A DNA stretch of 64,000 nt from Bradyrhizobium cytisi (lineage in GTDB: Bacteria; Pseudomonadota; Alphaproteobacteria; Rhizobiales; Xanthobacteraceae), in contig NZ_VSSR01000071.1 in the NCBI RefSeq assembly GCF_008123515.1, positions 1 through 64,000 on the forward strand. Reading direction: 5' to 3'. A program made the position numbers and the translations under genes. A model generated the notes under the pieces. The model did not search any database. It worked only from the letters and a program-made list of their open reading frames with translations, and had not been told where the DNA came from. This document shows positions 28,775 through 48,699 of this stretch, piece after piece. The first letter of the stretch is position 1, and every line of letters begins with the position of its first letter.

Positions 28775-29767
28775 CTAGCGTTTCGTGAAAGCAACCGCGG
28801 CCACGATGATCGCGCCCTTGATCACGAGCTGCATCGGCGAGCTCACGCCGAGCAGAACAAGGCCGTTGTTGAGCGTGCCAATGATCAAGCTGCCGAACAG
28901 CGTTCCCAGGATGTAGCCGCGCCCGCCGAACAGGCTGCAGCCCCCGAGGATCACCGCGGCGATGACGTCGAGCTCCATGCCCTGCACGACATCTGGCCGC
29001 GCGGCGTGTGAACGCGCCGACAGCACCAGCGCCGCTAATCCGGCCAGCGTGCCGGTCAGGACAAAGGCCGAAGTCGTGATCCGTTTGGTGTTGATGCCGG
29101 AATAGAGCGCCGCGGTCGGATTGCCGCCGACCGCATAGATGCGCCGGCCGAACACGTTGTAGTGCAGCAGCAGGATGCCGATGATCATCGCCGCCAACGT
29201 CCAGGCGATCGGAACCGGTATGCCGAGGAACGTACCTTCCCCAAAGATCGCAAAATAAGTCTCGTTGGTGATGATCACCGGCTTGGTGTTGGTCACCATC
29301 ATCGCCAGTCCCCGCGCCATGCTCAGCGAGCCCAGCGTCACCAGGAACGACGGGATCGATAGCTGCGTGGTCAGGATGCCATTGAGCAGCCCGACCAGCG
29401 CACCGGTGCCGAGCCCGGCCACGGCGCCCACGATCCAGCTGTTGTTGATCTGGCTCATCGCGAGAGCGGCCGCCATGCCTGATAGCGCCAATGTCGAGGC
29501 AACCGACAGATCGATCTGGCGCGCGATGATAATGAAGGTCATGCCGACCGCGATGATCGACACCAGCGTGGTCTGGCGCCCGATATTCAGGAAATTGTCG
29601 ACCGAGAGGAACCAGGGCGAGGACAGGCTGAACACGACCAGCAGGATCACGAAGGCGATGTACAGCATGTACGGCCGCTCGCCCCGCAGCAGATTCTGGA
29701 GAATCTTGCGGCGGCGATCGGATCGGGTCGACGAGGCGACCACGTTGGGAGCAGTCAGTTCTGTCAT
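28775..29767 (-). CDS. Sugar ABC transporter permease (RbsC/CUT2 type)
   Basis: 330 residues with 8-10 hydrophobic segments. Typical CUT2 permease sequences include GMTFIIIARQIDLSVASTLALSG and VIAAVILGGCSLFGGRGYILGT. It forms a homodimeric channel driven by the ATPase encoded just upstream. Its ATG overlaps the ATPase stop (ATGA), so they are translationally coupled. A basic N-terminal tail (SDRRRKILQN) is cytoplasmic. Confidence 0.93.
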   Translation of the reverse strand: MTELTAPNVVASSTRSDRRRKILQNLLRGERPYMLYIAFVILLVVFSLSSPWFLSVDNFLNIGRQTTLVSIIAVGMTFIIIARQIDLSVASTLALSGMAAALAMSQINNSWIVGAVAGLGTGALVGLLNGILTTQLSIPSFLVTLGSLSMARGLAMMVTNTKPVIITNETYFAIFGEGTFLGIPVPIAWTLAAMIIGILLLHYNVFGRRIYAVGGNPTAALYSGINTKRITTSAFVLTGTLAGLAALVLSARSHAARPDVVQGMELDVIAAVILGGCSLFGGRGYILGTLFGSLIIGTLNNGLVLLGVSSPMQLVIKGAIIVAAVAFTKR

Positions 29768-31338
29768 GCGGGAAGCTCTTGCAAGTGGCCTGGCCCGGAG
29801 GCCTGGTAGATCTGGAGGAGATGATGCAGCTCTTCGGCATCATCGATCTCGCCGCGCGAAAGCGTACGAGCCACATGCCCGTTGACGATCACGGAGATGC
29901 GGTCGCAGAGCTCGATCAACTCGACGAGATCGGACGAGACGACCAGGACCCCGCTGCCGTCGCGGACGGCATTCCGGATCACGGCATAGATCTCCTCGCG
30001 TGCGCCCACGTCGACGCCGACCGTCGGTTCGTCCAGGAGCAGCACGCGCGGCCGCGGATCATTCCATTTTCCGAACACGACCTTTTGCTGGTTGCCGCCG
30101 GAGAGTGTCCTGACCAGGCTGAACGCGCCCGGCGCTTTCACCGAAAGCCTGGCGACCGCGGTTTCGGCCCGCCTGGCAGCGGCGCGTTGCTGCATCCAGC
30201 CCCAGCGCGAGAAATGGGAAATCCGCGGCAAAGTGACATTTCGTTCGATCGAATGGTCCAGGACCAGACCCTGCACGTGCCGGTCTTCCGGCACCAGCGC
30301 GATGCCCTGCTCTATCGCATCGGCAGGTCCTCCCGGCAGCCATCGCCGGCCCTCGATCTCGATTGCGCCGCTCTCGAGCGGCCGGAGGCCGAACACTGTC
30401 TCCAGAATCTCCGTGCGTCCGCTGCCGATCAATCCGGCGAGGCCGTGGATCTCGCCCTTCAGCACGGACAGATCGACAGCGCGAAGCCGGTCGTTAGACA
30501 CATCCGACAGCGACAAGACCGGCAACGGATCCAATTCACGCTTCGCGGCGGGTTCGGTGCGCGGGCCAGTGGGTGTCGATCGATCGGCTCCGACGATCGC
30601 GTTCACCAGCCGCTTCATGTCGGTCTCGGCGGTGACGAACGTGCCGGCGTTAGCGCCATCGCGGAGCACAGTCACGCGCTGCGAGATCTCGAAGACCTCG
30701 TTGAGCCGATGGGTCACATAGATCACGCCGACTCCACGACGCGTTGCCTTCCCGATCGCATCGAACAGGATCCGGACCTCATCCGATGTCAGCGAAGAGG
30801 TCGGCTCATCGAGGATCAGAAGCCGAACCTCGCCCATCAGGGCCTTGGCGATCTCCGTCATCTGGCGATAGGCGAAAGGCAGCGAGCCGACAGTCGCTCT
30901 CGTATCCAGGGGAATGCCGAGCTCGTTCAGGAACGCCTCGGCCCTGGCCATCAGCGCGCGCTGCCGGACGAAGCCGAAACGCGCACGCGGCTCACGGCCG
31001 AGCAACAGATTATCCGCGACACTCAAGGATTCGACGAGGCTGAGGTCCTGATAGACGACGGCGATCCCCGCCTCGCGCGACTTCGCCGGGCTGTCGAATT
31101 CCACCGGCCTGCCGGCGATCTCGATCGTGCCGCTGTCGAGGGCATGAACACCGCTGAGGATCTTGATCAGCGTGGATTTTCCCGCGCCATTCTCGCCCAG
31201 CAGCGCGTGCACTTCGCCGGCGCGAACCTCGAGGTTGACGTCGCGCAGCGCTCGCACGCCGCCAAAACGCTTGTTGATGGCACTGACCATCAAAAGCGAG
31301 GTCGACGTCCCTGGCTCTGCCGTACCCGAACCGGACAA
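29764..31338 (-). CDS. Sugar ABC transporter ATP-binding protein (RbsA/CUT2 type)
   Basis: About 524 residues with two ABC domains. The first has Walker A LLGENGAGKSTLIK and Walker B LLILDEPTSSLT. The second has the degenerate Walker A-like LAGLIGSGRTEILE, signature LSGGNQQKV and Walker B VLLLDEPTVGVD, the normal asymmetry for RbsA. I place the start at TTG (31338), following GGGAGGAAGG. An ATG at 31389 gives 541 residues but has no ribosome-binding site and lies in the candidate operator; ATG 31290 is another option. First gene of the CUT2 operon. Confidence 0.92.
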   Translation of the reverse strand: MSGSGTAEPGTSTSLLMVSAINKRFGGVRALRDVNLEVRAGEVHALLGENGAGKSTLIKILSGVHALDSGTIEIAGRPVEFDSPAKSREAGIAVVYQDLSLVESLSVADNLLLGREPRARFGFVRQRALMARAEAFLNELGIPLDTRATVGSLPFAYRQMTEIAKALMGEVRLLILDEPTSSLTSDEVRILFDAIGKATRRGVGVIYVTHRLNEVFEISQRVTVLRDGANAGTFVTAETDMKRLVNAIVGADRSTPTGPRTEPAAKRELDPLPVLSLSDVSNDRLRAVDLSVLKGEIHGLAGLIGSGRTEILETVFGLRPLESGAIEIEGRRWLPGGPADAIEQGIALVPEDRHVQGLVLDHSIERNVTLPRISHFSRWGWMQQRAAARRAETAVARLSVKAPGAFSLVRTLSGGNQQKVVFGKWNDPRPRVLLLDEPTVGVDVGAREEIYAVIRNAVRDGSGVLVVSSDLVELIELCDRISVIVNGHVARTLSRGEIDDAEELHHLLQIYQASGPGHLQELPA

Positions 31339-31387
31339 TTCCAAACCTTCCTCCCGTCGCCCTGCGAGATGCTGGTACGATGGTGAC

Positions 31388-31446
31388 ATATTGTTATTTT
31401 TACAACTTATCTTGTTATAATTCTATCACCTCGGGCTGCCTGTCAA
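31388..31446 (-). promoter_or_regulatory. CUT2 operon promoter region with TTGTTA repeats
   Basis: AT-rich stretch with ATTGTTA (31390-31396), an inverted partner ACAA (31402-31405) and a second TTGTTA (31412-31417). TTGACA (complement of 31441-31446) and TAGAAT (complement of 31420-31425) could form a promoter, though the 15-bp spacing is short. The TTGTNA core is shared with the repeats between deoC and the DeoR-type gene, suggesting a common regulator. Confidence 0.5.
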
Positions 31447-32966: not shown

Positions 32967-33097
32967 CGTAGTCTTATCAGCAACGCCATGACTGACCGGG
33001 GAGAGATTTGCAAAGTGCGCGATACGTGCGCCCTTGCATTCTCTCCTTGGTTGTTGAACGCTATCAAAAAAAGACGAGAGCTTCTGGGAGAGAAGGC

Positions 33098-33925
33098 ATG
33101 AGCCGGGCGCTCGCCGTCTTCCACGGCCGCTTTGGCCGGGCGACGGTCTATCAGTTGAACCGCCCTTTCAACATCCACGCACATCGCGAAGGTCATTTGA
33201 TCTTCCATGTCGGGGGGCGTCCCGCATGCATCGATGTCAACGATGGACGCTACGAGCTCACCGAAGGTTCCGTGGTCGCAGTCAATCCATGGGAGCCGCA
33301 TAATTTCCTGCCGTCCGATCTCGACGGCGGCGCCGTGTTCTTCGTGCTCTATGTCAATGCAGAGTGGTTCGCGCCCGACGCGCCGGGCGCCGACCGCCTG
33401 CGGTTTGGCCGCACCCAGCTCACGCGGTCGGTTGCGCTGGACAAGCATATCAGGCACGCAGCCGCCCTTGTGTGCGGCGCACCCTCGCTGAATAGCCTCG
33501 ATGGCGAGCTGAGAAGCCTGATCGACATCTGCTACGACGAAAGCTGGCAGCAGGCCGAGCTCACGCGGGATCCACGCGCGAGCGGCTCCGTCACCGATTT
33601 TCGCGTGCGCAAATGCATCAAGATGATGTCGGAGAGCCCCGGCGCCGAGATCGAGCTCGACACCATCGCGCGCGAATCCGGCCTGTCGCGCCCCCATTTC
33701 TACCGGCTGTTCCGCACCCAGACCGGCGTTACCCCTCACCTCTATCTCAACACGCTGATGATGGAGCAGGCGCTGGAGGCGCTGGTGGCGAGCGAAGCGC
33801 CGATCGCCGATATCGGCTTCGATCTCGGCTTCTCCTCGCAGAGCGGTTTCACCCGTTTCTTCGCCGCCAATGTCGGGATGGCGCCGACCGATTATCGCCG
33901 CGCGGCCAAGGTTTTGCGCGGCTGA
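33098..33925 (+). CDS. AraC-family transcriptional regulator
   Basis: 275 residues from the ATG after GGGAGAGAAGGC. An N-terminal cupin effector domain (HAHREGHLIFHVGG and VVAVNPWEPHNFLP) is followed by a two-helix-turn-helix AraC domain (about residues 175-272: LDTIARESGLSRPHFYRLFR and IADIGFDLGFSSQSGFTRFF). It is probably an activator of the surrounding operon. The effector pocket keeps His residues that in other members sense aromatic or sugar ligands. It lies between the solute-binding gene and the permease genes, all in the same direction, with 200 bp before livH. Confidence 0.92.
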   Translation: MSRALAVFHGRFGRATVYQLNRPFNIHAHREGHLIFHVGGRPACIDVNDGRYELTEGSVVAVNPWEPHNFLPSDLDGGAVFFVLYVNAEWFAPDAPGADRLRFGRTQLTRSVALDKHIRHAAALVCGAPSLNSLDGELRSLIDICYDESWQQAELTRDPRASGSVTDFRVRKCIKMMSESPGAEIELDTIARESGLSRPHFYRLFRTQTGVTPHLYLNTLMMEQALEALVASEAPIADIGFDLGFSSQSGFTRFFAANVGMAPTDYRRAAKVLRG

Positions 33926-35138: not shown

Positions 35139-36227
35139 ATGTCCGTCACCCACGACGCTCGCGTCCAGATCCACAACCCCGCCGCCGCGGCACAGCGGCC
35201 GGCCGCGCGAAGCTGGCCCGACGCCAACAATCCCGCGGTCTGGATCGTGGCGGCCATCCTCCTGATCATGCCACTGATCGCCAACGGCTTCTTCCTGATC
35301 GAAATTTTTGCGACGACGCTGATCCTCGGCACCATCGCGCTCAGCCTGATGTTCTTGGCCGGTTATGGCGGCATGGTCAGCCTGATGCAGCTCACCATCG
35401 CCGGCTTTTGCGCCTACATGGTCGCGGTGTTCGGCGTCAGCGGCAATGCCAATATCAGCCTGGGCTGGCCGTGGTGGCTGGCGGTGCCGATGGCGCTGAC
35501 GCTCGCGACCATCTTCGGCACGCTCGGCGGCGCCCTCGCGGTGCGGACCGAGGGCATCTACACCATCATGATCACGCTCGCGATCGGCGCTGCTTTCTAT
35601 TACTTCACCAACCAGAACTGGGCGATCTTCAACGGCCACACCGGCATCAACAATGTCTCGACGCCGCATTTCTGGGGCGTCGACTGGCGCCGGGATATTC
35701 CCTTCTACTATGTCGTGCTCGCGGTCGCCGCGATCTGCTACTTCGCCGTCGACTACATCTCTCGCGCACCGTTCGGCCTGGCGTTGCAGGGCGTGCGCGA
35801 CAATCCGCGCCGCATGGCAGCGCTCGGCTTCAACGTCAATGCGCACCGCGTCGCGGCCTATGCGGTAGCGTCCTTCATCGCAGGCCTTGCCGGCGTGCTC
35901 CAGGTCTGGAACTACCGCCAGATCTCGCCCGGCTCAGTCAGCGTCGGCGCCTGCATCGACATTCTCATCATCGCCGTCGTCGGCGGCATTACCCGGCCGA
36001 TCGGTCCCTATATCGGCGCACTGGTCTTCGTCCTCCTGCGCACGTTTGCGCTCGATTTCCTGGTCAGGATCGGGCTCGACGGCAACCGGTTCCGGCTGTT
36101 GATTGGCCTCGGCTTCCTCGCCATCGTGTTCTGGTCGTCAGACGGTGTGATCGGCCTGTGGCAACGCTGGCGCCAGAGCCAACGTCCGCAGTCAGATCAC
36201 CCGGGCGGAGGGCGCGGCCATGGATAG
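35139..36227 (+). CDS. livM: Branched-chain-type ABC transporter permease (LivM type)
   Basis: 362 residues with around ten membrane segments after a soluble N-terminal tail of about 35 residues. The LivM hallmark FGLALQGVRDNPRRMAALGF is present, as is EGIYTIMITLAIGAAF. It starts one base after the livH stop and overlaps livG by eight bases. It is the second channel subunit of the importer. Confidence 0.93.
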   Translation: MSVTHDARVQIHNPAAAAQRPAARSWPDANNPAVWIVAAILLIMPLIANGFFLIEIFATTLILGTIALSLMFLAGYGGMVSLMQLTIAGFCAYMVAVFGVSGNANISLGWPWWLAVPMALTLATIFGTLGGALAVRTEGIYTIMITLAIGAAFYYFTNQNWAIFNGHTGINNVSTPHFWGVDWRRDIPFYYVVLAVAAICYFAVDYISRAPFGLALQGVRDNPRRMAALGFNVNAHRVAAYAVASFIAGLAGVLQVWNYRQISPGSVSVGACIDILIIAVVGGITRPIGPYIGALVFVLLRTFALDFLVRIGLDGNRFRLLIGLGFLAIVFWSSDGVIGLWQRWRQSQRPQSDHPGGGRGHG

Positions 36228-37002
36228 CGTCGCCCGGCGTCTCTCCGCGGTCGGTGCCGGTGCAGCACTCGAGCTGCGCGGCGTCACCCGGCTGTTCGGC
36301 GCGCTGGCGGCGCTGACCGACGTCACCATCACCGTGCGCCCCGGCGAGCGGCGCGCCGTGCTCGGCTCCAACGGCGCCGGCAAGACCACACTGTTCAACT
36401 GCATCACCGGCGACTTCCTGCCGACATCGGGCACGATCCGCTTCTTCGGTGAGGACGTTACGCACTTCCCGCCCTATGAGCGCATCCGCCGCGGGCTGAG
36501 GCGGACCTATCAGATCTCCGCGCTGTTCCCCGGCCTCACCGTCCAGGACAACGTCTATCTCGCCTGCCGTGGCGTCTCGCGCGGGCGCTTCTCGTTCCTT
36601 CGTCCGGGCCAGACCGATGCGCTGATGCAGGCCGCTGACAGTCTGGTGCAAGCCGTGCACCTCACCGCGGTGAAGGATCAGCGCGTCGCCGAGCTCGCAC
36701 ACGGCCAGCAGCGCCAGCTCGAAATCGCGCTGGCGCTGGCGGGCGCCCCGCGGTTCGTGCTGTTCGACGAGCCCGCCGCCGGCCTCTCACCGACCGAGCG
36801 GGCCGAATTGGTCGAGATCCTGACCTCGCTGCCGGCGCATATCGGCTACATCATCATCGAGCACGACATGGACGTGGCGCTGCGCGTCGTCGAGAGCGTG
36901 ACGATGATGCACAACGGCCGCATCTTCAAGGAAGGCGTGCCCGAGGAGATCCAGTCCGACCCCGAGGTGCAGGAACTTTATCTCGGAGGCGGCCATGAAT
37001 GA
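36220..37002 (+). CDS. livG: Branched-chain-type ABC transporter ATP-binding protein (LivG type)
   Basis: 260 residues. Walker A LGSNGAGKTTLFNCITGDF, Walker B FVLFDEPAAGLSPTE and the His switch in IIIEHDMDVAL are intact. The signature is AHGQQRQLEIALAL, with Ala-His in place of the usual Ser-Gly, a substitution common among LivG proteins. Eight-base overlaps with livM and with the next gene show tight coupling. It forms a heterodimer with the LivF domain of the next, fused, protein. Confidence 0.93.
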   Translation: MDSVARRLSAVGAGAALELRGVTRLFGALAALTDVTITVRPGERRAVLGSNGAGKTTLFNCITGDFLPTSGTIRFFGEDVTHFPPYERIRRGLRRTYQISALFPGLTVQDNVYLACRGVSRGRFSFLRPGQTDALMQAADSLVQAVHLTAVKDQRVAELAHGQQRQLEIALALAGAPRFVLFDEPAAGLSPTERAELVEILTSLPAHIGYIIIEHDMDVALRVVESVTMMHNGRIFKEGVPEEIQSDPEVQELYLGGGHE

Positions 37003-39211
37003 GGTCCGCCGCTCCCCCGCAGCGCTCGAGGTCCGCGGCCTCGACGTCTATTACGGCCATTCGCACGCGCTGCAGGGTGTCGACCTCTCGCTCGATGCCG
37101 GCGTTTTTTCCGTGGTCGGCCGCAACGGCATGGGCAAGACCACGCTGTGCAAGGCGATCATGGGCCTGGTGCAGGTGAGCGGCGGCTCGATCCGAATCCG
37201 CGGCGAGGACATCACACGGCGGCCACCCGCGCATATCGCGCGGCTCGGCGTCGGCTATGTGCCGCAGGGCCGGCGGCTGTGGCGCTCGCTCAGCGTCGAC
37301 GAGCATCTGCGGCTCGCCGGCGGCATGCGGTCCGGTGCCTGGACCGTCGAACGCATCTACGAGACCTTTCCGCGGCTCGCCGAACGCAAGGATCATGGCG
37401 GCGGCCAGCTCTCCGGTGGCGAGCAGCAGATGCTCGCAATCTCGCGCGCGCTGCTGACAAATCCGCAGCTGCTGATCATGGACGAGCCGACCGAGGGGCT
37501 CGCGCCCGTCATCGTCGCCCAGGTCGAGGAAATGCTGCAGCAGCTCGGCGAGGACGGCGACATGTCCGTGCTTGTGATCGAGCAGAACATTGGGGTTGCG
37601 ACTGCGATCTCGCGCAATGTCGCGATCATGGTCAACGGCCGCATCAACCGCATCATCGACTCTGGCCGGCTGTCCGCCGACCGCGAGCTGCAGCGGCGCC
37701 TGCTCGGCGTCGGACTGCACGCCGAGCTCGAACCCGAAATCGATGTGCCGGCTGCCGGCAGTGAAACGAAGCCGCTCCCGCAACCGACGCGCGCCAGCGG
37801 ACCGATCCGGATCTACATCTCCAATCCGACGCCGCCGACACGGTGGTCGCAGCCGGTCCCGATCGGGCGCATCGAGGCCGCCGCACGCACGCTCTCGACG
37901 CAGGTTCCCCGCCTCGACGAGACCGCGCGGCGCAAGCGTGAGCCGGTGACGGCGCAGACCTCCGGCCCTCCGGTCGTATTGGTCGTCGGCACGCTCGACA
38001 CCAAGGGCACGGAACTTCGCTTCATCCGCGACATCATCGTGGAAGGCGGCCTGCGTACGCGGCTGGTCGACGTCTCCACCAGCGGCAAGCACGCAACCTG
38101 CGATGTCTCCGCCCAGGAGATCGCGCTGAACCACGGTCGCGGCGGCTCGGCCGTGTTCGGCCCGGATCGCGGTGCTGCAGTCACCGCGATGGCTGACGCG
38201 TTCGCCAATTGGATCAAGCGGCAGGGCAATGTTGCCGGCGTGATTTCCGCTGGCGGCTCGGGTGCGGCATCTCTCGTCGCACCCGGCATGCGCACCCTCC
38301 CCGTCGGCGTGCCGAAGCTGATCATCTCCTCGGTCGCCTCCGGGGACGTCGGGCCTTATGTGGGGCCCGCCGACATCACCATGATGCATTCGGTCACCGA
38401 CGTGCAGGGCCTCAACTCGATCTCGCGCGCGGTGCTGTCGAACGGCGCCAACGCCATCGCCGGCATGGTCAAGGCGCGGCTCGACCAGCGCGAGAACAGG
38501 GAACGGGCTGCCAGCGCCGCGCTGCCGTCGGTCGGTATCACCATGTTCGGCGTCACGACGCCGGCGGTACAGAAGATCGCGGCCGATCTGCGCGAGGATT
38601 TCGAATGCCTCGTCTTCCACGCCACCGGCGTCGGCGGCCGCTCGATGGAGAAGCTGGTCGACTCCAGCCAGCTCGCCGGCGTGATCGACCTCACCACCAC
38701 CGAAATCTGCGACCTCCTGATGGGCGGCGTATTTCCGGCGACGGAGGATCGCTTCGGCGCGATCATCCGCACCCGCCTGCCCTATATCGGCTCGGTCGGC
38801 GCGCTCGACATGGTCAATTTCGGCGCGCCCGACACCATCCCCGAACGCTATCGCGGCCGCAAATTCCACGTCCACAATCCGCAGGTAACGCTAATGCGGA
38901 CGACGGTGGAGGAGAACGAACGCATGGGCCGCTGGATCGGCGAGCGGCTCAACCAGATGGACGGGCCGGTGCGTTTCTTCCTGCCCGAGGGGGGCGTCTC
39001 CGCGCTCGATGCCCGCGGCCAGCCGTTCTGGGATGGCGAGGCCGACGCCGCCCTGTTCCGCACGCTGGAGCGCACGGTGCGTTCGACGGGCAACCGCCAA
39101 CTGATCCGCGTCAAGCAGAACATCAACGATCCCGAGTTCGCCTCGACCATCACAGCTGCGTTCCGAACATTGTTCGGCCGCGCCGGGGCACGCCGGAGAC
39201 TAGCGAGGTGA
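36995..39211 (+). CDS. LivF ATPase fused to a Tm-1 N-terminal (UPF0261) domain
   Basis: 738 residues. Residues 1 to about 245 are a complete LivF ATPase: Walker A VVGRNGMGKTTLCKAI, signature LSGGEQQMLAISRAL, Walker B LLIMDEPTEGLAP. A Pro/Thr/Arg-rich linker (about 246-324) leads to a UPF0261/Tm-1-like ATP-binding domain from residue ~325 (PVVLVVGTLDTKGTELRFIRD, then GGSGAASLVAPGMRTLPVG and VTLMRTTVEENERMGRWI). The second part, ~414 residues, is the length of the N-terminal domain of the tomato Tm-1 protein. There is no frame break in the linker, so the fusion looks genuine. Function of the Tm-1 part is unknown. Confidence 0.9.
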   Translation: MNEVRRSPAALEVRGLDVYYGHSHALQGVDLSLDAGVFSVVGRNGMGKTTLCKAIMGLVQVSGGSIRIRGEDITRRPPAHIARLGVGYVPQGRRLWRSLSVDEHLRLAGGMRSGAWTVERIYETFPRLAERKDHGGGQLSGGEQQMLAISRALLTNPQLLIMDEPTEGLAPVIVAQVEEMLQQLGEDGDMSVLVIEQNIGVATAISRNVAIMVNGRINRIIDSGRLSADRELQRRLLGVGLHAELEPEIDVPAAGSETKPLPQPTRASGPIRIYISNPTPPTRWSQPVPIGRIEAAARTLSTQVPRLDETARRKREPVTAQTSGPPVVLVVGTLDTKGTELRFIRDIIVEGGLRTRLVDVSTSGKHATCDVSAQEIALNHGRGGSAVFGPDRGAAVTAMADAFANWIKRQGNVAGVISAGGSGAASLVAPGMRTLPVGVPKLIISSVASGDVGPYVGPADITMMHSVTDVQGLNSISRAVLSNGANAIAGMVKARLDQRENRERAASAALPSVGITMFGVTTPAVQKIAADLREDFECLVFHATGVGGRSMEKLVDSSQLAGVIDLTTTEICDLLMGGVFPATEDRFGAIIRTRLPYIGSVGALDMVNFGAPDTIPERYRGRKFHVHNPQVTLMRTTVEENERMGRWIGERLNQMDGPVRFFLPEGGVSALDARGQPFWDGEADAALFRTLERTVRSTGNRQLIRVKQNINDPEFASTITAAFRTLFGRAGARRRLAR

Positions 39212-39214
39212 CCG

Positions 39215-40048
39215 ATGGCCCGGTTTGAACGCGCACCATTGTTGAGACGGTTTCACGAGATGGCGAAACGCGGCGAGCCGATCGTCGGCGGCGGCGCTGG
39301 CACCGGCCTGTCGGCCAAATGCGAGGAAGCCGGCGGCGTCGATCTCATCGTGATCTACAATTCCGGCCGCTACCGCATGGCCGGCCGCGGCTCGCTTGCC
39401 GGGCTGATGCCCTATGGCGACGCCAACGCCATCGTGCTGGAGATGGCCGGCGAAGTGTTGCCTGTGGTCAGCAAGACGCCGGTGCTCGCCGGCGTCAACG
39501 GCACCGATCCGTTCCGCGACATGGATGTGTTTCTCGACCAGCTCAAGGCGCTCGGCTTTGCCGGCGTGCAGAACTTCCCGACCGTAGGCCTTATCGACGG
39601 CGTCTTCCGCGCCAATCTCGAAGAGACCGGCATGTCCTACGCGCTGGAGATCGACATGATCGCCAAGGCGCGCGAGAAGGACCTGCTGACGACGCCTTAC
39701 GTCTTCAGCGAGAAGGAAGCCGCCGCGATGGCGATCGCCGGCGCCGACATCATCGTCTGCCATCTCGGGCTCACCACCGGCGGCACCATCGGCGCGCAGA
39801 CCGCACCCAAGCTGAAGGACTGCCCGGCGCGCATCGACACCTGGGCGTCTGCCGCGCTCAGCGTCAATCCGGACATTCTCGTGCTTGCCCATGGCGGCCC
39901 GATCGCGGATCCGGCGGATGCCGATTTCATCATGAAGAACACCCGCTACTGCCACGGCTTCTACGGTGCCTCCTCGATGGAGCGGCTGCCGGTGGAGCGG
40001 GCGTTGACGGAGCAGGTACGCAAATTCAAGGCGATCGGCGCGCGATAA
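39215..40048 (+). CDS. Phosphoenolpyruvate hydrolase-like TIM-barrel protein (Tm-1 C-terminal type)
   Basis: 277 residues of the PEP-hydrolase-like/TIM-barrel family (PF09370 by recollection). Recognisable segments are [49 protein letters not shown] (in part) and [19 protein letters not shown]. In plant and fungal Tm-1 proteins this barrel is joined to the UPF0261 domain; here the two are adjacent genes, separated by three bases. That supports joint action. The reaction is not established; the family name comes from structural resemblance to PEP-utilising enzymes. Confidence 0.88.
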
Positions 40049-40074: not shown

Positions 40075-42975
40075 ATGTCAGGGATCCTGGTCGGCGAGCT
40101 TATTCTCTGGCTGATCGTCGCGATCATCGTGATCGTGGTTGGCGTCTACATCGTCAACTGGCTCTACCACCGCTCCTCCAAGGAGGTGTCGTTCGTCCGG
40201 ACCGGTTTCCTCGGCGAACGCGTCGTGATCAACGGCGGTGCCTTCGTGCTGCCCTTCATTCACGATTACACGTCGGTCAACATGAACGTGCTGCCGATGG
40301 GGATCGTGCGTTCGCGGCAGGACGCCGTGATCACGCGCGATCGCATGCGCGTCGATATCGAGGCCGATTTCTATGTCAGGGTCCAGGCCACTCGCGAAGC
40401 CGTCTCGATCGCCGCCGCAACGCTCGGTCGCCGCACCATGGAGCCGGAACAGCTCCACGCGCTGCTGGCCGGCAAGTTCATTTCCGCGATCCGCTCGGTC
40501 GCTTCCGAAATGACCCTCGAAGAGATGCATGAACGTCGCGGCGACTACGTCGCGCGGGTCAAGACCAATGCGGCCGAGGCGCTCGCCCAGAACGGGCTCG
40601 AGCTCGAATCCGTCGCCATCACCGATCTCGACCAGACCGACCTCGAATTCTTCAACCCCTCGAACCGCTTCGACGCCGAAGGCTTGACCAAGCTGATGGA
40701 GGACATCGAGGCGAGGCGCAAGCTGCGCAACGACATCGAGCAGGACTCGATGATCAAGATCCGCACCCGCAATCTGGAGGCCGAGCGACAGGCACTCGAA
40801 ATCGAGCGCGAGAGCGAGACGGCGCGGCTGGAGCAGGAACGCGACATCGAGATGCGCCGCGCGCTCCAGCGCACGGAAGTCGCCCGCGAACGCGCCCTGC
40901 GCGAGACCGAGGCCGAGCAGGCGCAGATTTCCGCACGCGAGGCGATCGAGCGCTCGCGGATCGCCAATGAACAGGCGATTGCCGAGGCCCGTATCGCCTC
41001 CGAGCGCGAGACCCGCCAGAAGGAGATCGAGCGCACCCGCACCATCGAGGAGAAAGAGCTGCTGGCGCGCGAGGAGATCGAGAAGACGCGGATCGCCAAC
41101 CAGCGCTCGATCGACACGACGCGCATTGCGTCGGAACGCGAGGTCCGCCAGCGCGAGATCGAGCGGATGCGGACCGTCGAGGAAGCCGAGATCGCCGCGC
41201 GCGAGGCGATCGAGAAGGCCCGGATCCAGCAGGACCGCGTCGTTACCGATGCCCGCATCGCCAACGAAGAGGAAACGCGCCGCCGCGAGATCGAGCGCAC
41301 CCGCGCCATCGACGAAGCCGAGATCGCCGCCCGCGAAGCTACCGAGAAAGCGCGCATCGCCCAGACGCTGATCGTCAATGTCGAGCGTATCGCGTCAGAC
41401 GAGCGCACCCGCGCGCTGGAGATCCAGCAGGTCCGCACCATCCAGGAGGCCGAGATCGAGGCACAGCGCGCGGTCGAGGCGGCCCGCATCGCCCGCGAGC
41501 GGATGCTCGCCGCCGAGCGCATCGCTGCCGAGCAGAACACGAGGCAGCTGGAGATCGAGCGCAACCAGGCCCTTGAAGTTGCGGGCATCGCCGCACGCGA
41601 GACGACCGAAGCGAGCCGCATCGCTCAGGAGGAGCGCGTGCGTTCGCTGGAGATCGCGCGCAATCGCGCCGTCGAGGAAGCCGACATCGCCTCCCGCGAA
41701 GCGATCGAGGCGGCCCGCATCGCGCAGGAGAAGGCCGTTGCGGCCGAACGCATCCAGGCCGAGCGCGATACCCGCTCGCTGGAAATCGAGCGCACGGGCG
41801 TACTGGAGGCCGCCGAACTGAAACGGCGCGACACCATCGAGCGCCAGCGTATCGTGGTCGATCTTGCCCTGGAAGCTGAACGGATCAACTCCTCCAAGAA
41901 GCGCGAGGTGCTCAATATCGAGCAGAAGAAGGCGATCGAGATCGCTGACGAGGACCGCGTCATCGCCCTCTCCGCGAAGAAATCGGAGCGGATCGATGCC
42001 GACCGCCAGGTCCGGCAGGCCGAGATCGTCGCCCGCAAGGAGGTCGAGACCACCGACGTCTCGCGCGAGCAGGCGCTGGAAGCTGCCCGCCTCGAGCGCC
42101 GGCGCGCTATCGAGCAGCTCGAGGTCGCCCGGGTCCAGTCGTTGCAGGAGGCCGAGATCGCCTCCCGCGAGGAGGTCGAGCGCGCGCGCATCTCCTCCGA
42201 CCGCGGCCTGGACGAAGCCCGCGTCGGTCGCGAGCGCGAGCTGCGCAAGCTCGAGGTCAACCGCGAGAAGGAGGTCGAAACCGTCCTGATGGAGAAGGCA
42301 ATCGCGATCCATCAGAAGTCGCTGGAAGAATCCGCTGCCAAGGCGATGGCCGAGGAAGCGCGGATGCGGGCCACCGAGGCAACCGAGCGCGTCATCACCG
42401 CGCGCGAGAGCGAGATCGCCAAACGCCGCAAGACCGTCGAAATCATGATTGCCGAGAAGCAGGCCGAGGAGACCCGGATTGCCGCGGACGCCGAGCGTGT
42501 CCGTGCCACCGTCGAAGCCGAAGCCCAGCGGATGCTCAACGAGGCTGAGAACGTCCTTACCGACCAGGCCCGCTACTCGCTGTTCCGCAGAAAACTGCTC
42601 GACCGTATCGAGGGCATCGTGCGCGAGAGCGTCAAGCCGATGGAGAAGATCGAGGGCATCCGTATCCTCCAGGTCGACGGGCTCAATGGCAATGGCCATG
42701 GCGGCAATGGCGGCCGCAGCGCCACCGACGAGGTGATCGACTCGGCGCTGCGCTACCGCGTGCAGGCGCCGCTGATCGATTCGCTGCTGGCTGACATCGG
42801 CGTCGAGGGTGGCAGCCTCGCAAAAATGCCCGGCCTGATCCGCGAGGCCCGCGACATGCAGGGCATCAAGGAGTCCGCGCGCAGGGGCGGTGGCGGCGAC
42901 AAGACCGCAGCCCCTCCGCCTGCAGCTGAGGGCGGCGAACCGCCGGCCGAGCGTGGTCCGCGGAAGAAGAGCTGA
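40075..42975 (+). CDS. Giant flotillin-like membrane scaffold with 44-residue coiled-coil repeats
   Basis: 966 residues from the ATG after GAGGGAGGG. An N-terminal membrane helix (LILWLIVAIIVIVVGVYIV) precedes an SPFH domain (about 35-230). Residues 274-727 form a highly charged coiled coil of repeats, mostly exactly 44 residues (REAIEKARI and RIASERETRQxEIER motifs), some 33 or 36. The C-terminal ~200 residues resemble flotillin ends and finish in a Gly/Pro/Lys-rich tail. Ordinary flotillins are about 500-650 residues. Flotillins organise membrane microdomains; a scaffold for the importer or molybdenum enzyme is possible. Long open frames inside the gene in other phases are by-products of the repeats. 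Confidence 0.92.
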   Translation: MSGILVGELILWLIVAIIVIVVGVYIVNWLYHRSSKEVSFVRTGFLGERVVINGGAFVLPFIHDYTSVNMNVLPMGIVRSRQDAVITRDRMRVDIEADFYVRVQATREAVSIAAATLGRRTMEPEQLHALLAGKFISAIRSVASEMTLEEMHERRGDYVARVKTNAAEALAQNGLELESVAITDLDQTDLEFFNPSNRFDAEGLTKLMEDIEARRKLRNDIEQDSMIKIRTRNLEAERQALEIERESETARLEQERDIEMRRALQRTEVARERALRETEAEQAQISAREAIERSRIANEQAIAEARIASERETRQKEIERTRTIEEKELLAREEIEKTRIANQRSIDTTRIASEREVRQREIERMRTVEEAEIAAREAIEKARIQQDRVVTDARIANEEETRRREIERTRAIDEAEIAAREATEKARIAQTLIVNVERIASDERTRALEIQQVRTIQEAEIEAQRAVEAARIARERMLAAERIAAEQNTRQLEIERNQALEVAGIAARETTEASRIAQEERVRSLEIARNRAVEEADIASREAIEAARIAQEKAVAAERIQAERDTRSLEIERTGVLEAAELKRRDTIERQRIVVDLALEAERINSSKKREVLNIEQKKAIEIADEDRVIALSAKKSERIDADRQVRQAEIVARKEVETTDVSREQALEAARLERRRAIEQLEVARVQSLQEAEIASREEVERARISSDRGLDEARVGRERELRKLEVNREKEVETVLMEKAIAIHQKSLEESAAKAMAEEARMRATEATERVITARESEIAKRRKTVEIMIAEKQAEETRIAADAERVRATVEAEAQRMLNEAENVLTDQARYSLFRRKLLDRIEGIVRESVKPMEKIEGIRILQVDGLNGNGHGGNGGRSATDEVIDSALRYRVQAPLIDSLLADIGVEGGSLAKMPGLIREARDMQGIKESARRGGGGDKTAAPPPAAEGGEPPAERGPRKKS

Positions 42976-43872: not shown

Positions 43873-44691
43873 ATGGGCGTGACAGTGAAGACTTTCACCA
43901 GCGCCAGTGAGGCGGCGGGCGCGCTGTCCACCGACCGCAGCGCGCGCTATCTCGGCGGCGGCACGCTGGTGATGCGCGCGCTGAACGAGGGCGACGTCAC
44001 AATCTCGACCGTCGTTCGCGCCCAGGACCAGGCGCTGACCCGGATCGATGCCTCCGGCCCGCGCATCACGCTGGGCGCCGGCGTCACTTTCGCGCGCGTC
44101 CTTGCCGAGCGAGATCTCGGCTTCCTTCACGCCCCTGCCCGTTCGATTGGTGGCCCGGCCGTGCGCAACATGGGGACTGTCGGCGGCAATCTCTTCGCCC
44201 CGAACCCGTATGGCGATTTCACCGTCGCGCTGCTGGCGCTCGATGCCACCGTCGCCGTGCAAGGCGGCTTTGGCGCGCGCGACATCCCGATTGAGGAGTT
44301 TTTGCAGGCCCGCGACCGTCAAGCCGGCACGCTGGTCCTGTCGGTCTCCTGCACCCGTCCCGCAAGCAGCGAAGCGTTTCGGTATCGCAAGATCGCGCGC
44401 ATCAAGCCGAAGGGCGGCTCTGTCATCACGCTGGCCGCGCATCTGCCGATCAGCGGCGGCCGGATCGCTGGCGCGCGGATCGCGTTGGGCTCGATGGCAC
44501 CGACCCAGATCCGGGCCCGCGCCGCCGAGCGGGCGCTGGAGGGCCACTCGCTGGATGCCGCAACCATAGCGGCGGCCGCATCCGCCGCCACTGAAGGAAC
44601 ATCGCCATCGGACAATGCGCTTGGCAGCGCCTGGTATCGCCGCGAGATCGTTGGCGTCCATCTGCGCCGTCTGCTGTCAGGACAGGAATAA
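43873..44691 (+). CDS. Molybdenum hydroxylase, FAD-binding medium subunit (CoxM type)
   Basis: 272 residues, normal for CoxM/xanthine dehydrogenase medium subunits. The FAD-binding motifs RYLGGGTLVMRAL and the second, GGPAVRNMGTVGGNLFAPNPYGDF, are present. It passes electrons from the iron-sulfur subunit to an acceptor. It is followed by small and large subunits in the M-S-L order of cox operons. No transit or Tat signal is seen, so the enzyme is cytoplasmic. Confidence 0.93.
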   Translation: MGVTVKTFTSASEAAGALSTDRSARYLGGGTLVMRALNEGDVTISTVVRAQDQALTRIDASGPRITLGAGVTFARVLAERDLGFLHAPARSIGGPAVRNMGTVGGNLFAPNPYGDFTVALLALDATVAVQGGFGARDIPIEEFLQARDRQAGTLVLSVSCTRPASSEAFRYRKIARIKPKGGSVITLAAHLPISGGRIAGARIALGSMAPTQIRARAAERALEGHSLDAATIAAAASAATEGTSPSDNALGSAWYRREIVGVHLRRLLSGQE

Positions 44692-44697
44692 ACGGTC

Positions 44698-45174
44698 ATG
44701 TCCAAGATCCCCCTGCAATTTCGTCACAATGGCCGCGACGTCGCGATCTTCGTCGACGGCGGCACCAATCTGCTGGTCGCGCTGCGCGAGCTGATCGGCG
44801 ACATGACGCCCAAATTCGGCTGCGGCCAGGGCGGCTGCGGCACCTGCAGCGTGCTGATCGACGGTGAGCTTCACCTCTCCTGCCTGACGCTGGCGGAAAC
44901 CGTCGCCGGCCGTTCGGTGGAGACGCTTGACGGCATGAAGCAGGGCCCGAACCTGCATCCGCTCCAGCGCGCCTTCGCCGACAATTTTGCCGCCCAGTGC
45001 GGCTATTGCACCCCGGGCATGCTGATGGCCGCAAAGGCCCTGCTCGACCGCAACCCGTCGCCGAGTCGCGACGAGGTCATTGAAGCCATCTCAGGCAACA
45101 TCTGCCGCTGCACCGGCTACGAGCCGATCATCAACGCCATCCTCGCCGCCGCCAGCGGCCGGGTCAGCGCCTAA
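44698..45174 (+). CDS. Molybdenum hydroxylase, [2Fe-2S] small subunit (CoxS type)
   Basis: 158 residues with both expected clusters: plant-type FGCGQGGCGTCSVLIDGE plus Cys in HLSC, and the helical-domain cluster QCGYCTPGM plus NICRCTGYEPI. Length is standard. It relays electrons from the molybdopterin site to FAD. All eight cysteine ligands are present. It lies six bases after the medium subunit and is followed by the split large subunit. Confidence 0.94.
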   Translation: MSKIPLQFRHNGRDVAIFVDGGTNLLVALRELIGDMTPKFGCGQGGCGTCSVLIDGELHLSCLTLAETVAGRSVETLDGMKQGPNLHPLQRAFADNFAAQCGYCTPGMLMAAKALLDRNPSPSRDEVIEAISGNICRCTGYEPIINAILAAASGRVSA

Positions 45175-45186
45175 GGGAACGTGACC

Positions 45187-46782
45187 ATGCTGGAACTGCG
45201 CAAGGACATCTTCGCCGACGAGCGCGACGACAATCTGAAGGAAATCGGCAAGGGCACCCAGCGCCAGGACATGCTCGGCCATGTCACGGGCACGTCGAGC
45301 TACTTCAACGACCACAAGCTCCAGGGCATGCTGCATCTGAAGGTCGTCCGCTCGACGCAGGCGCACGCCAGAATTCGCCGCATCGATACCACCGAGGCCG
45401 AGCGCTCCGCCGGCGTACGCCGGATCATCCGCGGCACTGATGTGCCGGTTAATCTCAACACGCTTCTGAGCCTGATCAATTTCGGCAAGGACGACGAGCC
45501 GTCGCTCGCGGTCGACAAGGTCCGCTACAAGGGCGAACCGATCGTCGCCATCGTTGCCGACAGCGAGCGCGAGGCCTTCGAGGCCATCGCAAAAGTCAAG
45601 GTCGACTACGAGCCGCTGGCGGCGGTGTTCGACGTCGAGGATGCGTTGAAGCCCGGCGCGCCCGTCGTCAACGAAACCTATCCCAAGAACACCTTCACCT
45701 ATCACGAGACCTACGACCACCAGAGGCTCCGCTTCGGCGATGCCGACGCGGCGCTCGCGACCGCCGACCACGTGCTGGAGCAGCGCTACCAGATGTCGCC
45801 GATCGAGCATGCGCCGACCGAGACCAATGGTGCGATCGCGGCGCCGGACACCAACGGCCGTTATGTGATCTACACCTCGACCCAGGCGCTGTTCTTCTCG
45901 GTCGACACCTGCGCCAAGATTCTGGACGTGCCGTCCAACACCTTCCACTTTATCGGCGGCACCGTCGGCGGCGGGTTTGGCGGCAAGGTGGACACGCTGA
46001 CCGAGCCGCTCGCCATTCTCGGCGCGATGCTGACCGGGCGGCCCGTGCGCTATGTGTTCGGGCGCGAGGAGGAGATGCAATACGGCCCGCCGCGCGGCGC
46101 CGAGCGCATCTACATCAAGGACGGCGTGATGCGCGACGGCCGCGTCGTCGCGCGCAAGATCCGCTGCTATTTTGACAGTGGCGCCTATACGCGGCTGTCC
46201 AGCTACGCCGCAGTGAAATGCGCAGCGCATTTGCCGGGTCCCTACACCATCCCCAACGTCTATGGCGACGTCTATTGCGTCTTCACCAACCGCACGCCGG
46301 CGACCGCCATGCGCGGTTTCGGCGTGACCGCGATGGACTTTGCCATCGAGTGCCAGATGGACAAGCTGGCACACCTCGTCAACATGGATCCGATGGAATT
46401 CCGCATCCTCAACGCCTATCGCGACGGCGACATGAAGGCGCACCGGCGCGAGGCCAAGAACACCGCGCTGATCGAATGCGTCCAGGTCGCGGCCGAGAAA
46501 GCCAAGTGGCCGCTTCGCGAGGAGTTCAAGCGAGCATCCTCGCGCAAGGACGGCGGCGGCAGCCGCGCGGTAATCCCGCCGACCCCGACGGATTCTTCGC
46601 GCGCGCGGCCCACCGCTCCGGCGCAGCAGCGCACCAGCTACGACCGTCTTCCACCCACCGTCACCCGCGAACCGCCGCGCGAGCCGCCACCACCACCTCC
46701 TCCGCCGCCCTCTCCGCGGCCAACCACGCCCTCGCATGGCGCGACCCGTTTCTCCTCCGTCTTCGGCACCAGGAGGCGCTAG
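45187..46782 (+). CDS. Molybdenum hydroxylase large subunit, N-terminal half (split gene)
   Basis: 531 residues from ATG 45187 (AGGGAA upstream; GTG 45181 possible). It matches the first part of xanthine dehydrogenase/CoxL large subunits: DMLGHVTGTSSYFNDHKLQG, the molybdopterin region GGTVGGGFGGKVDTLTEP, and PATAMRGFGVTAMDFAIE. Instead of continuing, it ends after a ~70-residue Pro-rich tail containing nine consecutive prolines. The second half is encoded by the next gene, with its own ribosome-binding site. Together they give the full set of cofactor-contacting motifs. Substrate unknown. Confidence 0.9.
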   Translation: MLELRKDIFADERDDNLKEIGKGTQRQDMLGHVTGTSSYFNDHKLQGMLHLKVVRSTQAHARIRRIDTTEAERSAGVRRIIRGTDVPVNLNTLLSLINFGKDDEPSLAVDKVRYKGEPIVAIVADSEREAFEAIAKVKVDYEPLAAVFDVEDALKPGAPVVNETYPKNTFTYHETYDHQRLRFGDADAALATADHVLEQRYQMSPIEHAPTETNGAIAAPDTNGRYVIYTSTQALFFSVDTCAKILDVPSNTFHFIGGTVGGGFGGKVDTLTEPLAILGAMLTGRPVRYVFGREEEMQYGPPRGAERIYIKDGVMRDGRVVARKIRCYFDSGAYTRLSSYAAVKCAAHLPGPYTIPNVYGDVYCVFTNRTPATAMRGFGVTAMDFAIECQMDKLAHLVNMDPMEFRILNAYRDGDMKAHRREAKNTALIECVQVAAEKAKWPLREEFKRASSRKDGGGSRAVIPPTPTDSSRARPTAPAQQRTSYDRLPPTVTREPPREPPPPPPPPPSPRPTTPSHGATRFSSVFGTRRR

Positions 46783-47805
46783 ATGACCCGGCATCGCGGA
46801 CGCGGCATCGCGTCGATCAACTATCCCATCGGCATGAATCTCGGCGGCGACCCCAGCCAGGCGCTGGTGCATTCCAACCCGAGCGGCAAGTTCACGGTGG
46901 CGCTGTCGTCGATCGACTTGGGACAGGGCATGAAGTCGGTGACGCGGCAGATCTGCGCGGAGACGCTGGGCGTGCCGGTCGAGGACGTCTATGTCGACAC
47001 CGCAGATTCCGACACCGGCCCGCATTGCATGGGCTCGTTCGCTTCGCGCGGCACCCATCGCGTCGGCAACGCCGTGATGGCGGCGGCCCGCGAGGCTCGC
47101 GGTGTCATGATGGAAGCTGCGGCCGAAGAGCTCGAGGTCAACGCCGCCGATCTCGAGACCGACGGGCGCGGCAACATCCACGTCAAGGGCGCGCCGCATC
47201 GCTCGATCTCGACCAAGGACGTCGCGATCGCCGCGCAGTTCAAGCAGGGCAAGACCATCTCGGGCCGCGGCATCTTCCTGGTGCCTCTCTCTGAAGTGAA
47301 TCCGGAGACCGGCGAGATGTCGCCCGCCACCTGCTACGCCCATGCCTGCCTGGTCGCCGAGGTCGAGGTTGACGACGAGACCGGCGAAGTTGCGATGGTG
47401 CGGATGGATTCGGCCTACGAGCTCGGCCGCGCGCTCAACCCGCGCCTGGTCGAGCAGCAGCTTGTCGGCGGCGCCTGGATGGGCGTCAGCCACGCGCTCT
47501 ACGAGACCCCGGAGCCATATTATCCCGAGCCCGTGCACGGCCCGCGCGACTTCGTCGAATATCTGATGCCCGGCCCCGGCGACATCTGCCCGCATGACAT
47601 TGCGGTGCTGGAGCGCCCTGCCCCCGACGGTCCATTCGGCGCCAAGGGTCCGGGTGAGATGTGTGCGAACCCCGTGCTGCCGGCGATCGCCAATGCGATC
47701 TTCAACGCGGTCGGTGTACGCATCGACGATCTGCCGATTACGCCGGAAAAAGTGTTGCGTGCGATCAAGGCCCAGGGCGGCACGCGGCCGCAGGCGCGGC
47801 GCTAG
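46783..47805 (+). CDS. Molybdenum hydroxylase large subunit, C-terminal half (split gene)
   Basis: 340 residues. Begins MTRHRGRGIASINYPIGMN, continues with DLGQGMKSVTRQICAETLGV and SFASRGTHRVGNAV, and ends with the active-site motif GAKGPGEMCANPVLPAIANA, whose Glu is the catalytic base in this family. AGGAGG at 46771-46776 lies inside the end of the previous gene, six bases before this ATG, showing separate translation. The stop/start junction is TAG-ATG with no overlap. It must assemble with the N-terminal half. Confidence 0.92.
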   Translation: MTRHRGRGIASINYPIGMNLGGDPSQALVHSNPSGKFTVALSSIDLGQGMKSVTRQICAETLGVPVEDVYVDTADSDTGPHCMGSFASRGTHRVGNAVMAAAREARGVMMEAAAEELEVNAADLETDGRGNIHVKGAPHRSISTKDVAIAAQFKQGKTISGRGIFLVPLSEVNPETGEMSPATCYAHACLVAEVEVDDETGEVAMVRMDSAYELGRALNPRLVEQQLVGGAWMGVSHALYETPEPYYPEPVHGPRDFVEYLMPGPGDICPHDIAVLERPAPDGPFGAKGPGEMCANPVLPAIANAIFNAVGVRIDDLPITPEKVLRAIKAQGGTRPQARR

Positions 47806-47817
47806 AGGGCCCGGTTC

Positions 47818-48699
47818 ATGGCGGTCCGCAGCAACATCGTCGGCATCGACAGCCCGGAGGCGCTGGAGAAGGCGCTGCGCGCCGCCTATTACCTTGCCGA
47901 CGAGGGCCTCGCGACTGCCGCCTACCTCGGCCTCGCGCTTGGCAAGCCGCTGTTGCTCGAGGGCGCACCGGGCGTCGGCAAGACAGAGGCCGCAAAAGCC
48001 ATCGCCGCCGTGCTCGGCCGCCGGTTGATCCGCCTGCAATGCTACGAGGGGATCGACGCCTCCGCGGCGCTCTACGAGTGGAACTACCCGCGCCAGATGC
48101 TCGCGATCCGCCAGGCCGGCGACGAAAGTATCGATATCTATGGCGAGACGTTTTTGATCGAGCGTCCCATGCTGGCGGTGCTGCGGGCCCCAGACTCCAC
48201 CGTGCTGCTCATCGACGAAATCGATCGCGCCGACCAGGAGTTCGAGGCCTTCCTGCTCGAATTTTTGTCCGACTTCCAGATTTCGATCCCCGAGCGCGGC
48301 ACGGTGCGCGCCACTGAGCGACCCGTCGTCGTGCTGACCTCGAACCGCACACGCGATTTGCACGAGGCGTTGCGCCGCCGCTGCGTCTACCACTGGATCG
48401 ACTATCCCACCGAAGAGCGTGAGGCACGCATCGTCATGCTGCGGGCTTCCAGTGTTGCGGAAGCGACCGCACGCGCCGTCGTCGCGGCCGTCGGCAGGCT
48501 CCGTCGCGAGCCGCTCAGCAAGGCGCCGGGCATCGCCGAAGCCGTCGATTGGGCCGAGGCCGCAACGCTCCTACACAGGGGCGGCGCGCGCTGGCCCGAC
48601 GCCTTCAGGCGCTCGATCGGCGTGGCGCTGAAGGATGAGGAGGATCTGCATTTCATCTCGCCCCGGCTCGACGCCATGCTCGCGGAGGCAACCGCATGA
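47818..48699 (+). CDS. MoxR-family AAA+ ATPase (CoxD type)
   Basis: 293 residues. Walker A EGAPGVGKTEAAK (residues 49-60), Walker B TVLLIDEIDRADQEF and sensor VVLTSNRTRDLHEAL are intact. MoxR/CoxD ATPases work with VWA partners to insert or mature metal centres, for example the CuSMo site of CO dehydrogenase. The gene is coupled to the VWA gene (ATGA). Its presence directly after the large-subunit genes argues that this hydroxylase needs a similar maturation step. Confidence 0.93.
   Translation: MAVRSNIVGIDSPEALEKALRAAYYLADEGLATAAYLGLALGKPLLLEGAPGVGKTEAAKAIAAVLGRRLIRLQCYEGIDASAALYEWNYPRQMLAIRQAGDESIDIYGETFLIERPMLAVLRAPDSTVLLIDEIDRADQEFEAFLLEFLSDFQISIPERGTVRATERPVVVLTSNRTRDLHEALRRRCVYHWIDYPTEEREARIVMLRASSVAEATARAVVAAVGRLRREPLSKAPGIAEAVDWAEAATLLHRGGARWPDAFRRSIGVALKDEEDLHFISPRLDAMLAEATA

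Follow-up and report, generated by a model that had tools for sequence, protein, structure and literature searches.

A LivF-type importer ATPase joined in one frame to a complete UPF0261 unit in Bradyrhizobium cytisi and other bacteria

Why should the motor subunit of a bacterial importer carry, in the same polypeptide, a complete relative of the N-terminal half of the tomato protein Tm-1? The question is raised by a 64,000-nucleotide stretch of DNA of the soil bacterium Bradyrhizobium cytisi (NCBI RefSeq assembly GCF_008123515.1, contig NZ_VSSR01000071.1, positions 1 to 64,000; this whole stretch is called the window). Here a 738-codon frame without internal stop (36995-39211, +) encodes a LivF-type ATPase of the ATP-binding cassette (ABC) class, a linker and a complete UPF0261 unit. 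In the reading we favour, to which we give a probability of about one half, this LivF::UPF0261 protein is bifunctional, acting as importer motor and as a tethered subunit of a catabolic enzyme that would work with the product of the next gene, a phosphoenolpyruvate (PEP)-hydrolase-like triosephosphate isomerase (TIM) barrel of family PF09370 (called PEPH here), and would be grouped by a flotillin. Both component families are already known; what is added is the join, its spread, a linker motif and the operon partners, of which no description was found in open-licence PubMed Central, consulted mostly as listings.

The ATPase domain comprises residues 1-240 (36995-37714, +), as delimited by Pfam, PDB and motif columns, and is followed by an interdomain linker of 82 residues (241-322; 37715-37960, +), recognized from the predicted local distance difference test (pLDDT) values, and by the UPF0261 unit (37961-39211, +), whose N and C subdomains were assigned by Pfam, PDB and structure match as the equivalent of Tm-1 residues 3-426. 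In the Pfam search of the 738-residue protein, ABC_tran (PF00005) matched residues 26-166 (E 7e-28), UPF0261 (PF06792) residues 327-495 (E 6e-59, 199 bits against a cut-off of 27) and UPF0261_C (PF23189) residues 511-726 (E 7e-91, 304 bits against a cut-off of 27). The two UPF0261 domains are both above the gathering score and nearly full length, and the unit spans residues 327-726. Among PDB sequences, the Thermotoga ABC ATPase 1ji0 matched residues 9-234 (E 1e-49), Tm-1 (3wry) residues 319-724 (E 2e-95) and the UPF0261 protein 9mpy residues 325-727 (E 1e-56). The 3wry match shows that the second part covers nearly all of the N-terminal half of Tm-1, including both subdomains. The original prediction, made from the letters alone, of a complete LivF ATPase in one uninterrupted frame with a relative of the N-terminal Tm-1 half is thus borne out by the Pfam domains, the PDB matches and the absence of an internal stop.

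The first half has the Walker A (GRNGMGKTT), signature (LSGGEQQ) and Walker B (LLIMDEP) sequences, and the residues of these motifs, including G45, K48, S140-G142 and D163-E164, are invariant among 44 fused proteins. As in importers of the hydrophobic amino acid uptake transporter (HAAT) type, to whose LivF and UrtE proteins it is similar in sequence, the gene is accompanied by livG, livH, livM and a LivJ-type binding-protein gene. Unlike these proteins, the fusion has about 500 extra residues and scores below the curated NCBIfam cut-offs (222 of 285.8 bits for UrtE, 153 of 441 bits for E. coli LivF). Because the cut-off for the E. coli type is missed, we use the name LivF-type and do not equate the protein with LivF of leucine transport.

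Both domains were confirmed in a single frame at 103 of 151 assembled loci. At 6 loci livF lies just upstream in another frame, and at 42 UPF0261 has no livF just upstream; L157 is placed in this last class even though only about 215 bases of its contig precede the UPF0261 match. These counts describe a chosen sample biased towards fusions and not a natural frequency: 60 stretches came from genome searches (40 picked mostly for long frames, 38 of them fused, and 20 for short frames, none fused), 80 were named loci, of which 61 proved fused, and 10 were plasmid regions with 3 fusions; the window completes the set. In the genus sample, UPF0261 occurs in 119 of 146 genomes and a stop-to-stop frame of 738-782 amino acids in 115; in G127 the UPF0261 frame has only 662. 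UPF0261-positive genomes numbered 21 of 149 for the family, 108 of 297 for the order and 38 of 398 for the phylum (overlapping groups), with many frames again of fused size. A named lineage could be resolved for 59 of the fused loci: 22 belong to Hyphomicrobiales and 15 to Burkholderiales, and the remainder come from other alpha-, beta- and gammaproteobacteria, a proteobacterium without further classification and a Rokubacterium. Many of these 59 are metagenome-assembled. Two public records label fused copies 'ABC transporter permease', which conceals the fusion.

The UPF0261 half keeps nearly all residues typical of its family. In 45 non-fused UPF0261 rows, 65 alignment columns reach a conservation of 95% or more; the window protein keeps 63 of these, and the median for fused proteins is 98%. 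Conserved residues of this half include K337, H542 and E570. Comparison of the window with five copies from the same genus (four of them named Bradyrhizobium) gave dN/dS values of 0.09-0.13 for LivF, 0.17-0.25 for the linker and 0.12-0.16 for UPF0261. A separate model of the UPF0261 part (pLDDT 92) superimposes on Tm-1 with Z about 45 over 384-397 residues (1.9 Å, 44-45% identity), and on 9mpy with Z 31.7 and a root mean square deviation of 7.0 at 31-33% identity, the high deviation perhaps reflecting a different angle between the subdomains. According to its title, 9mpy is Saro_1862, a UPF0261 domain protein of Novosphingobium aromaticivorans with bound acetovanillone, an aromatic ketone; as a chain of 406 residues it has no ATPase, and it is more distant than Tm-1 from the UPF0261 part of the fusion. 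A more distant, free-standing UPF0261 paralogue from the same genus (L138) scores 170 bits with 9mpy and 161 with Tm-1. In L138 and in L113, from the same order, such a paralogue lies beside genes for a class-III aminotransferase and an aldehyde dehydrogenase; a copper amine oxidase or a permease for amino acids also occurs there. These surroundings do not settle the chemistry, and no PEPH was found in them.

The PEPH gene lies 3 bases past the stop of the fusion (39215-40048, +; PF09370, Pfam E 1e-129), and its product has one solved relative at a significant E value, Mll9387 (2p10, E 6e-119). The 8.85-Mb genome of the window has a single UPF0261 and a single PF09370 match, the two that adjoin here. 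PEPH is adjacent at 82 of the 96 fused loci whose downstream sequence extends for 2.5 kb or more, and at 30 of the 40 usable free-form loci. Free-standing UPF0261-PEPH pairs adjoin sugar-type ABC, cupin, Gfo/Idh/MocA and SRPBCC genes, or SRPBCC near other catabolic genes. In plants, Tm-1 proteins join UPF0261 to a C-terminal half of the PEPH-type family, and an interaction of the families was inferred from co-evolution in 2016, according to the part of that paper available to us (PMC5028733). The common element with the tomato and plant Tm-1 structures (3wrw, 3wrx, 3wry) is the UPF0261 unit, which plants fuse to the TIM barrel, whereas here the barrel has its own gene and UPF0261 is preceded in the fusion by an importer ATPase. 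From the frequent association, the joining in Tm-1 and the contexts of the free pairs, UPF0261 and PEPH most likely constitute one enzyme or catalyze two reactions in sequence, with a substrate that contains a carbonyl group or a ring. The clear exception to the conservation described above is locus L108 (genome G556), where the fused UPF0261 keeps 75% of the conserved columns. A whole-genome search found no PF09370 match in G556, rated 100% complete, which suggests that the constraint on UPF0261 was lost once PEPH was gone; L108 is possibly a natural loss of the enzyme half.

The operon around the fusion begins with genes for a LivJ-type periplasmic binding protein (PF13458; 31716-32966, +, start inferred), an AraC-family regulator (33008-33925, +, Pfam and NCBIfam, start uncertain), the LivH-type and LivM-type permeases (both PF02653; 34127-35137 and 35139-36227, +) and a LivG-type ATPase (36220-37002, +, Pfam), which overlaps the start of the fusion by 8 bases. 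PEPH is followed by a long flotillin of 966 amino acids with Band_7 (PF01145) and Flot (PF15975) domains (40075-42975, +), by two SRPBCC proteins (both PF10604; 42986-43423 and 43423-43872, +, the second with a start inferred from sequence) and by a set of Mo-hydroxylase genes identified by family search (43873-49817, +). This order (form A) recurs in other fused loci. In form B the order is LivH, LivM, LivJ, LivG, LivF::UPF0261, PEPH, flotillin, SRPBCC, SRPBCC, in one Variovorax case with two amidohydrolases, an alpha/beta hydrolase and a gene of the fumarylacetoacetate hydrolase family upstream. The most informative neighbours are the PEPH gene, the flotillin, the SRPBCC pair and the Mo-hydroxylase genes, together with the split form of the operon found elsewhere. 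No operon-wide account that joins at least three of flotillin, branched-chain amino acid, xanthine dehydrogenase and SRPBCC was found in open-licence PubMed Central.

Flotillins organise bacterial membrane microdomains. The operon flotillin has the two domains named above, and its gene, unlike in the microdomain systems, lies inside a transporter operon. In all 103 fused loci, short contigs included, flotillin was found in 97 and SRPBCC in 92. When only loci with at least 5 kb of downstream sequence are counted (133 of 151), 89 of 91 fused loci have flotillin downstream, compared with 1 of 42 unfused ones, and this sole unfused case, L189, itself resembles a frameshifted fused gene. The fused exceptions are L103 and L217; the genome of L103 has a 980-residue flotillin frame elsewhere on the same contig. 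Since the fusion has mainly one origin (see below), the link to flotillin may be the habit of one lineage.

The linker of the window protein is predicted to be mostly disordered, with pLDDT below 50 at residues 240-287 and 297-321. A short motif of the linker, [TN]RW, is conserved: in the window it is Thr282-Arg283-Trp284 (37838-37846, +), as found by motif count and alignment. The motif occurs in 101 of 103 fused linkers, compared with a mean of 1.03 and a maximum of 4 in 300 rounds of shuffling, a control that does not remove the relatedness of the rows, and in the alignment of 44 fused proteins the Arg and the Trp are each present in 43. The 101 motif-bearing linkers vary in length from 72 to 162 residues. 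In form-A proteins the motif sits in a longer stretch like RIYISNP..PTRWSQPVPV..IE..ART. It was not seen in six separate LivF ends or in the unfused UPF0261 N-termini inspected, nor was a convincing second copy of the linker found in the window genome (next best match E 0.011, in a 67-residue frame). It may be that [TN]RW docks to LivG, PEPH or flotillin.

These observations can be combined in a tentative mechanism. LivJ would capture the compound, which would be imported by LivHM with LivG and LivF::UPF0261 as a branched-chain-amino-acid-type (HAAT) importer. The UPF0261 half, held on a flexible linker with the conserved, possibly docking Arg-Trp motif, would act together with PEPH, at the membrane's inner face, either on what is imported or on one of its first products; by context the substrate may be a ring or carbonyl compound. 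The long flotillin would probably gather the transporters in a membrane patch, bringing uptake and the first catabolic steps into one place, and the SRPBCC proteins and, in form A, the Mo-hydroxylase with its MoxR and CoxE helpers may act next. The bifunctional reading is based on the conserved residues kept by both halves (ATPase motifs in 44 fused proteins, 63 of 65 UPF0261 columns), the adjacency of the only UPF0261 and the only PF09370 match of the window genome, the recurrence of the operon, the flotillin found downstream of nearly all fused and almost no unfused loci, the shared LivF ancestry of split operons, the motif in nearly all linkers, the acetovanillone in 9mpy, and the degenerate UPF0261 of the genome without PF09370 (G556). 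The operon context suggests that coupling of import to catabolism is an economical reading; the original prediction of such coupling is in that respect well placed, although UPF0261 as the first enzymatic step is one of several options. If true, this coupling would be a new kind of cargo channelling by an ABC importer, with a flotillin encoded alongside. A more daring and doubtful version is an importer with an enzyme in its motor subunit, docked through Arg-Trp and clustered by flotillin into an 'uptake-and-digest' patch, which in its boldest form modifies, perhaps phosphorylates, its cargo on entry. The fusion assigns UPF0261 to a machine of importer and TIM barrel, so that the ordinary role of Tm-1 proteins becomes a question for one operon.

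How the join arose can be traced in the trees. In the UPF0261 tree, which holds 150 of the 151 rows, all 103 fused copies lie together with 6 alone and 2 split ones in a fork of 111 rows with a Shimodaira-Hasegawa-like approximate likelihood ratio test (SH-aLRT) value of 82, nested in a fork of 114 rows (SH-aLRT 95). L189, the probable frameshift case, is one of the 2 split rows. The tree needs 6 label changes, against 40 in shuffles, and the nearest named relatives of the window copy are Bradyrhizobium. L125, L126 and Thermomicrobium roseum have separate adjacent genes in the order LivH-LivM-LivJ-LivG-LivF-UPF0261-PEPH. In the LivF tree, which sampled 45 fused rows, the separate LivFs of L174, L125, L126 and Thermomicrobium (L140) share a fork of 51 rows (SH-aLRT 96) with the fused proteins; one other row in this fork is L198. 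Taken together, the two trees and the split operons indicate that livF and UPF0261 most likely began as adjacent genes and fused afterwards, for the most part in a single event. On the T. roseum plasmid (L140) the split operon lies beside genes for PEP/pyruvate-binding and PEP-utilising enzymes and FAD and Mo-hydroxylase genes, a mix reminiscent of phenol-phosphorylating pathways.

Several observations weigh against this history or against the bifunctional reading. Unfused rows (L122, L127, L133, L175, L203) are nested with fused copies in the UPF0261 tree, and the separate LivF of the split locus L145 is unrelated, outside the 51-row fork. Adjacent PEPH is missing in 14 of the 96 usable fused loci; five such genomes were searched whole, and PEPH was present elsewhere in three, each time within about 1.5 kb of a second UPF0261 of the same genome, and absent in two. 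In one of these two, G440 (L091; 93% complete), UPF0261 nevertheless does not belong to the rows of low conservation. Contrasts between fusion and flotillin on supported branches number only 3, of which about 2 agree, none opposes and 1 shows no difference (median p 0.5); a statistical proof that the two change together was given up for want of independent contrasts. L103 and L217 retain the motif without a flotillin next to them, and L159 and L160 have a neighbouring flotillin but no motif, so flotillin is not established as the partner of the motif. In the AlphaFold prediction the two domains have no fixed relation (predicted template modelling score 0.53). Finally, no activity and no ordinary, non-antiviral function of UPF0261 is reported in the available parts of the open-licence literature that names it.

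Some of these points suit a simpler view, in which the fusion merely equalises the amounts of LivF and UPF0261 and the halves work independently without coupling. The genes are neighbours in split operons, so that loss of a stop could have been fixed by drift; the linker is disordered, and the unfused L133 and L203 lie among fused rows. Retention of the join in 103 loci across several classes and of one motif in a linker of 72-162 residues, where about one occurrence is expected from shuffles, makes this view unlikely, though not strikingly so.

We also regard as unlikely, and slightly more so, that UPF0261 is a sensor which binds the imported compound or its product and throttles LivF. The C-terminal domains of MalK, MetN and ModC are regulatory and occupy the same place on the ATPase subunit, a small aromatic ketone is bound in one UPF0261 protein according to its title (9mpy), and the C-terminal half bears a weak resemblance in fold to sugar-binding domains and to sensors of the LacI type (Z about 9-11, 5-16% identity). 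Unlike the domains of MalK, MetN and ModC, however, UPF0261 is elsewhere a complete, free-standing family near catabolic genes. Its pairs with PEPH beside other types of transporter fit an enzyme, as does the frequent co-occurrence with PEPH in both fused and free loci, and the 63 of 65 residues kept suggest a function unaltered by fusion.

Much less probable is a phenolic kinase, by which the importer would phosphorylate and trap its cargo with ATP as an ABC counterpart of the phosphotransferase system. The idea draws on the database name 'ATP-binding' and the acetovanillone in 9mpy, and on acetovanillone catabolism in the same Novosphingobium species, which begins with the single-component kinase MarK, conceivably the same protein as Saro_1862, according to the part of the source available on the pathway (PMC13101465). 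HpeHI, a characterised kinase of the acetovanillone pathway, is PEP-synthase- and rifampin-phosphotransferase-like and not a UPF0261 protein, as far as the accessible text goes (PMC12167813), and in Thermomicrobium the PEP/pyruvate-binding and PEP-utilising genes stand beside UPF0261. The only kinase in the fold lists is phosphofructokinase (rank 30, E 4e-3, probability 0.28). An enzyme class could not be derived from the fold: beyond Tm-1 and 9mpy the matches were generic and none was decisive (at Z 9-11, folds of sugar sensors, cutinases and epimerases; low-TM rows for UDP-GlcNAc epimerase and the predicted acyl-CoA synthetase 3dmy, E 2e-4, TM 0.26). The 'second ATP-binding domain' of the original prediction is a database name only: Pfam and NCBIfam give no activity, the literature, as far as accessible, holds no ATP use by UPF0261, and the phrase 'Tm-1-like ATP-binding' was not found in open-licence PubMed Central papers. 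The family occurs in plants, fungi, archaea and bacteria (PMC5028733). In the portions available, it appears without an activity in a fungal expression table (PMC6867892), a wheat grain-weight gene carrying both domains (PMC5167734) and a Brucella genome comparison (PMC2364660); the portions seen of PMC3855732 and PMC12140429 held nothing on activity under the dimer, ATP and enzyme aspects, nor did those of PMC11837543, PMC12607616 and PMC9618137.

A frameshift or assembly error joining two genes is refuted by the single frame that both domains share at 103 loci and by the 115 of 146 genus genomes with a frame this long, even if L189 (Mesorhizobium sp. AR07), with an apparent frame shift at the end of LivF (about 9600-9750) after which UPF0261 and an NRW linker continue in another frame, illustrates how a single shift alters the picture. 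A local frameshift is thereby excluded; a separate internal translation start could in general be used, since one or more in-frame ATG, GTG or TTG codons lie within the linker at 40 of 42 fused loci inspected for this, among them the window (none in L115 and L117). A role in defence was rejected: of 8 PADLOC matches, led by mad3 with 71 bits, every one falls in residues 23-214, the ABC ATPase part, and PADLOC gave no match for the PEPH and flotillin proteins. The word 'antiviral' in the original prediction describes a trait of the tomato protein and finds no support here.

The Mo-hydroxylase set consists of an FAD subunit (43873-44691), a [2Fe-2S] subunit (44698-45174), a Mo subunit in two genes (45181-46782 and 46783-47805), a MoxR-like AAA protein (47818-48699) and a CoxE-like VWA protein (48696-49817), all on the + strand. 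The large subunit is thus divided into a MoCoBD_1 and a MoCoBD_2 part, and the first gene has an odd proline-rich tail ahead of its stop. A frame matching the MoCoBD_2 part is found in 26 fused loci, which does not imply that it is separate there; Yoonia has two molybdopterin-binding genes side by side. Divergently upstream of LivJ, a 541-residue frame (29764-31389, -) shows in translation two ABC cassette motifs and resembles a sugar-type ABC ATPase. A second fusion lies nearby at 51599-53176, combining an SMP-30/gluconolactonase part (residues 29-283) with an isochorismatase-type hydrolase (333-518).

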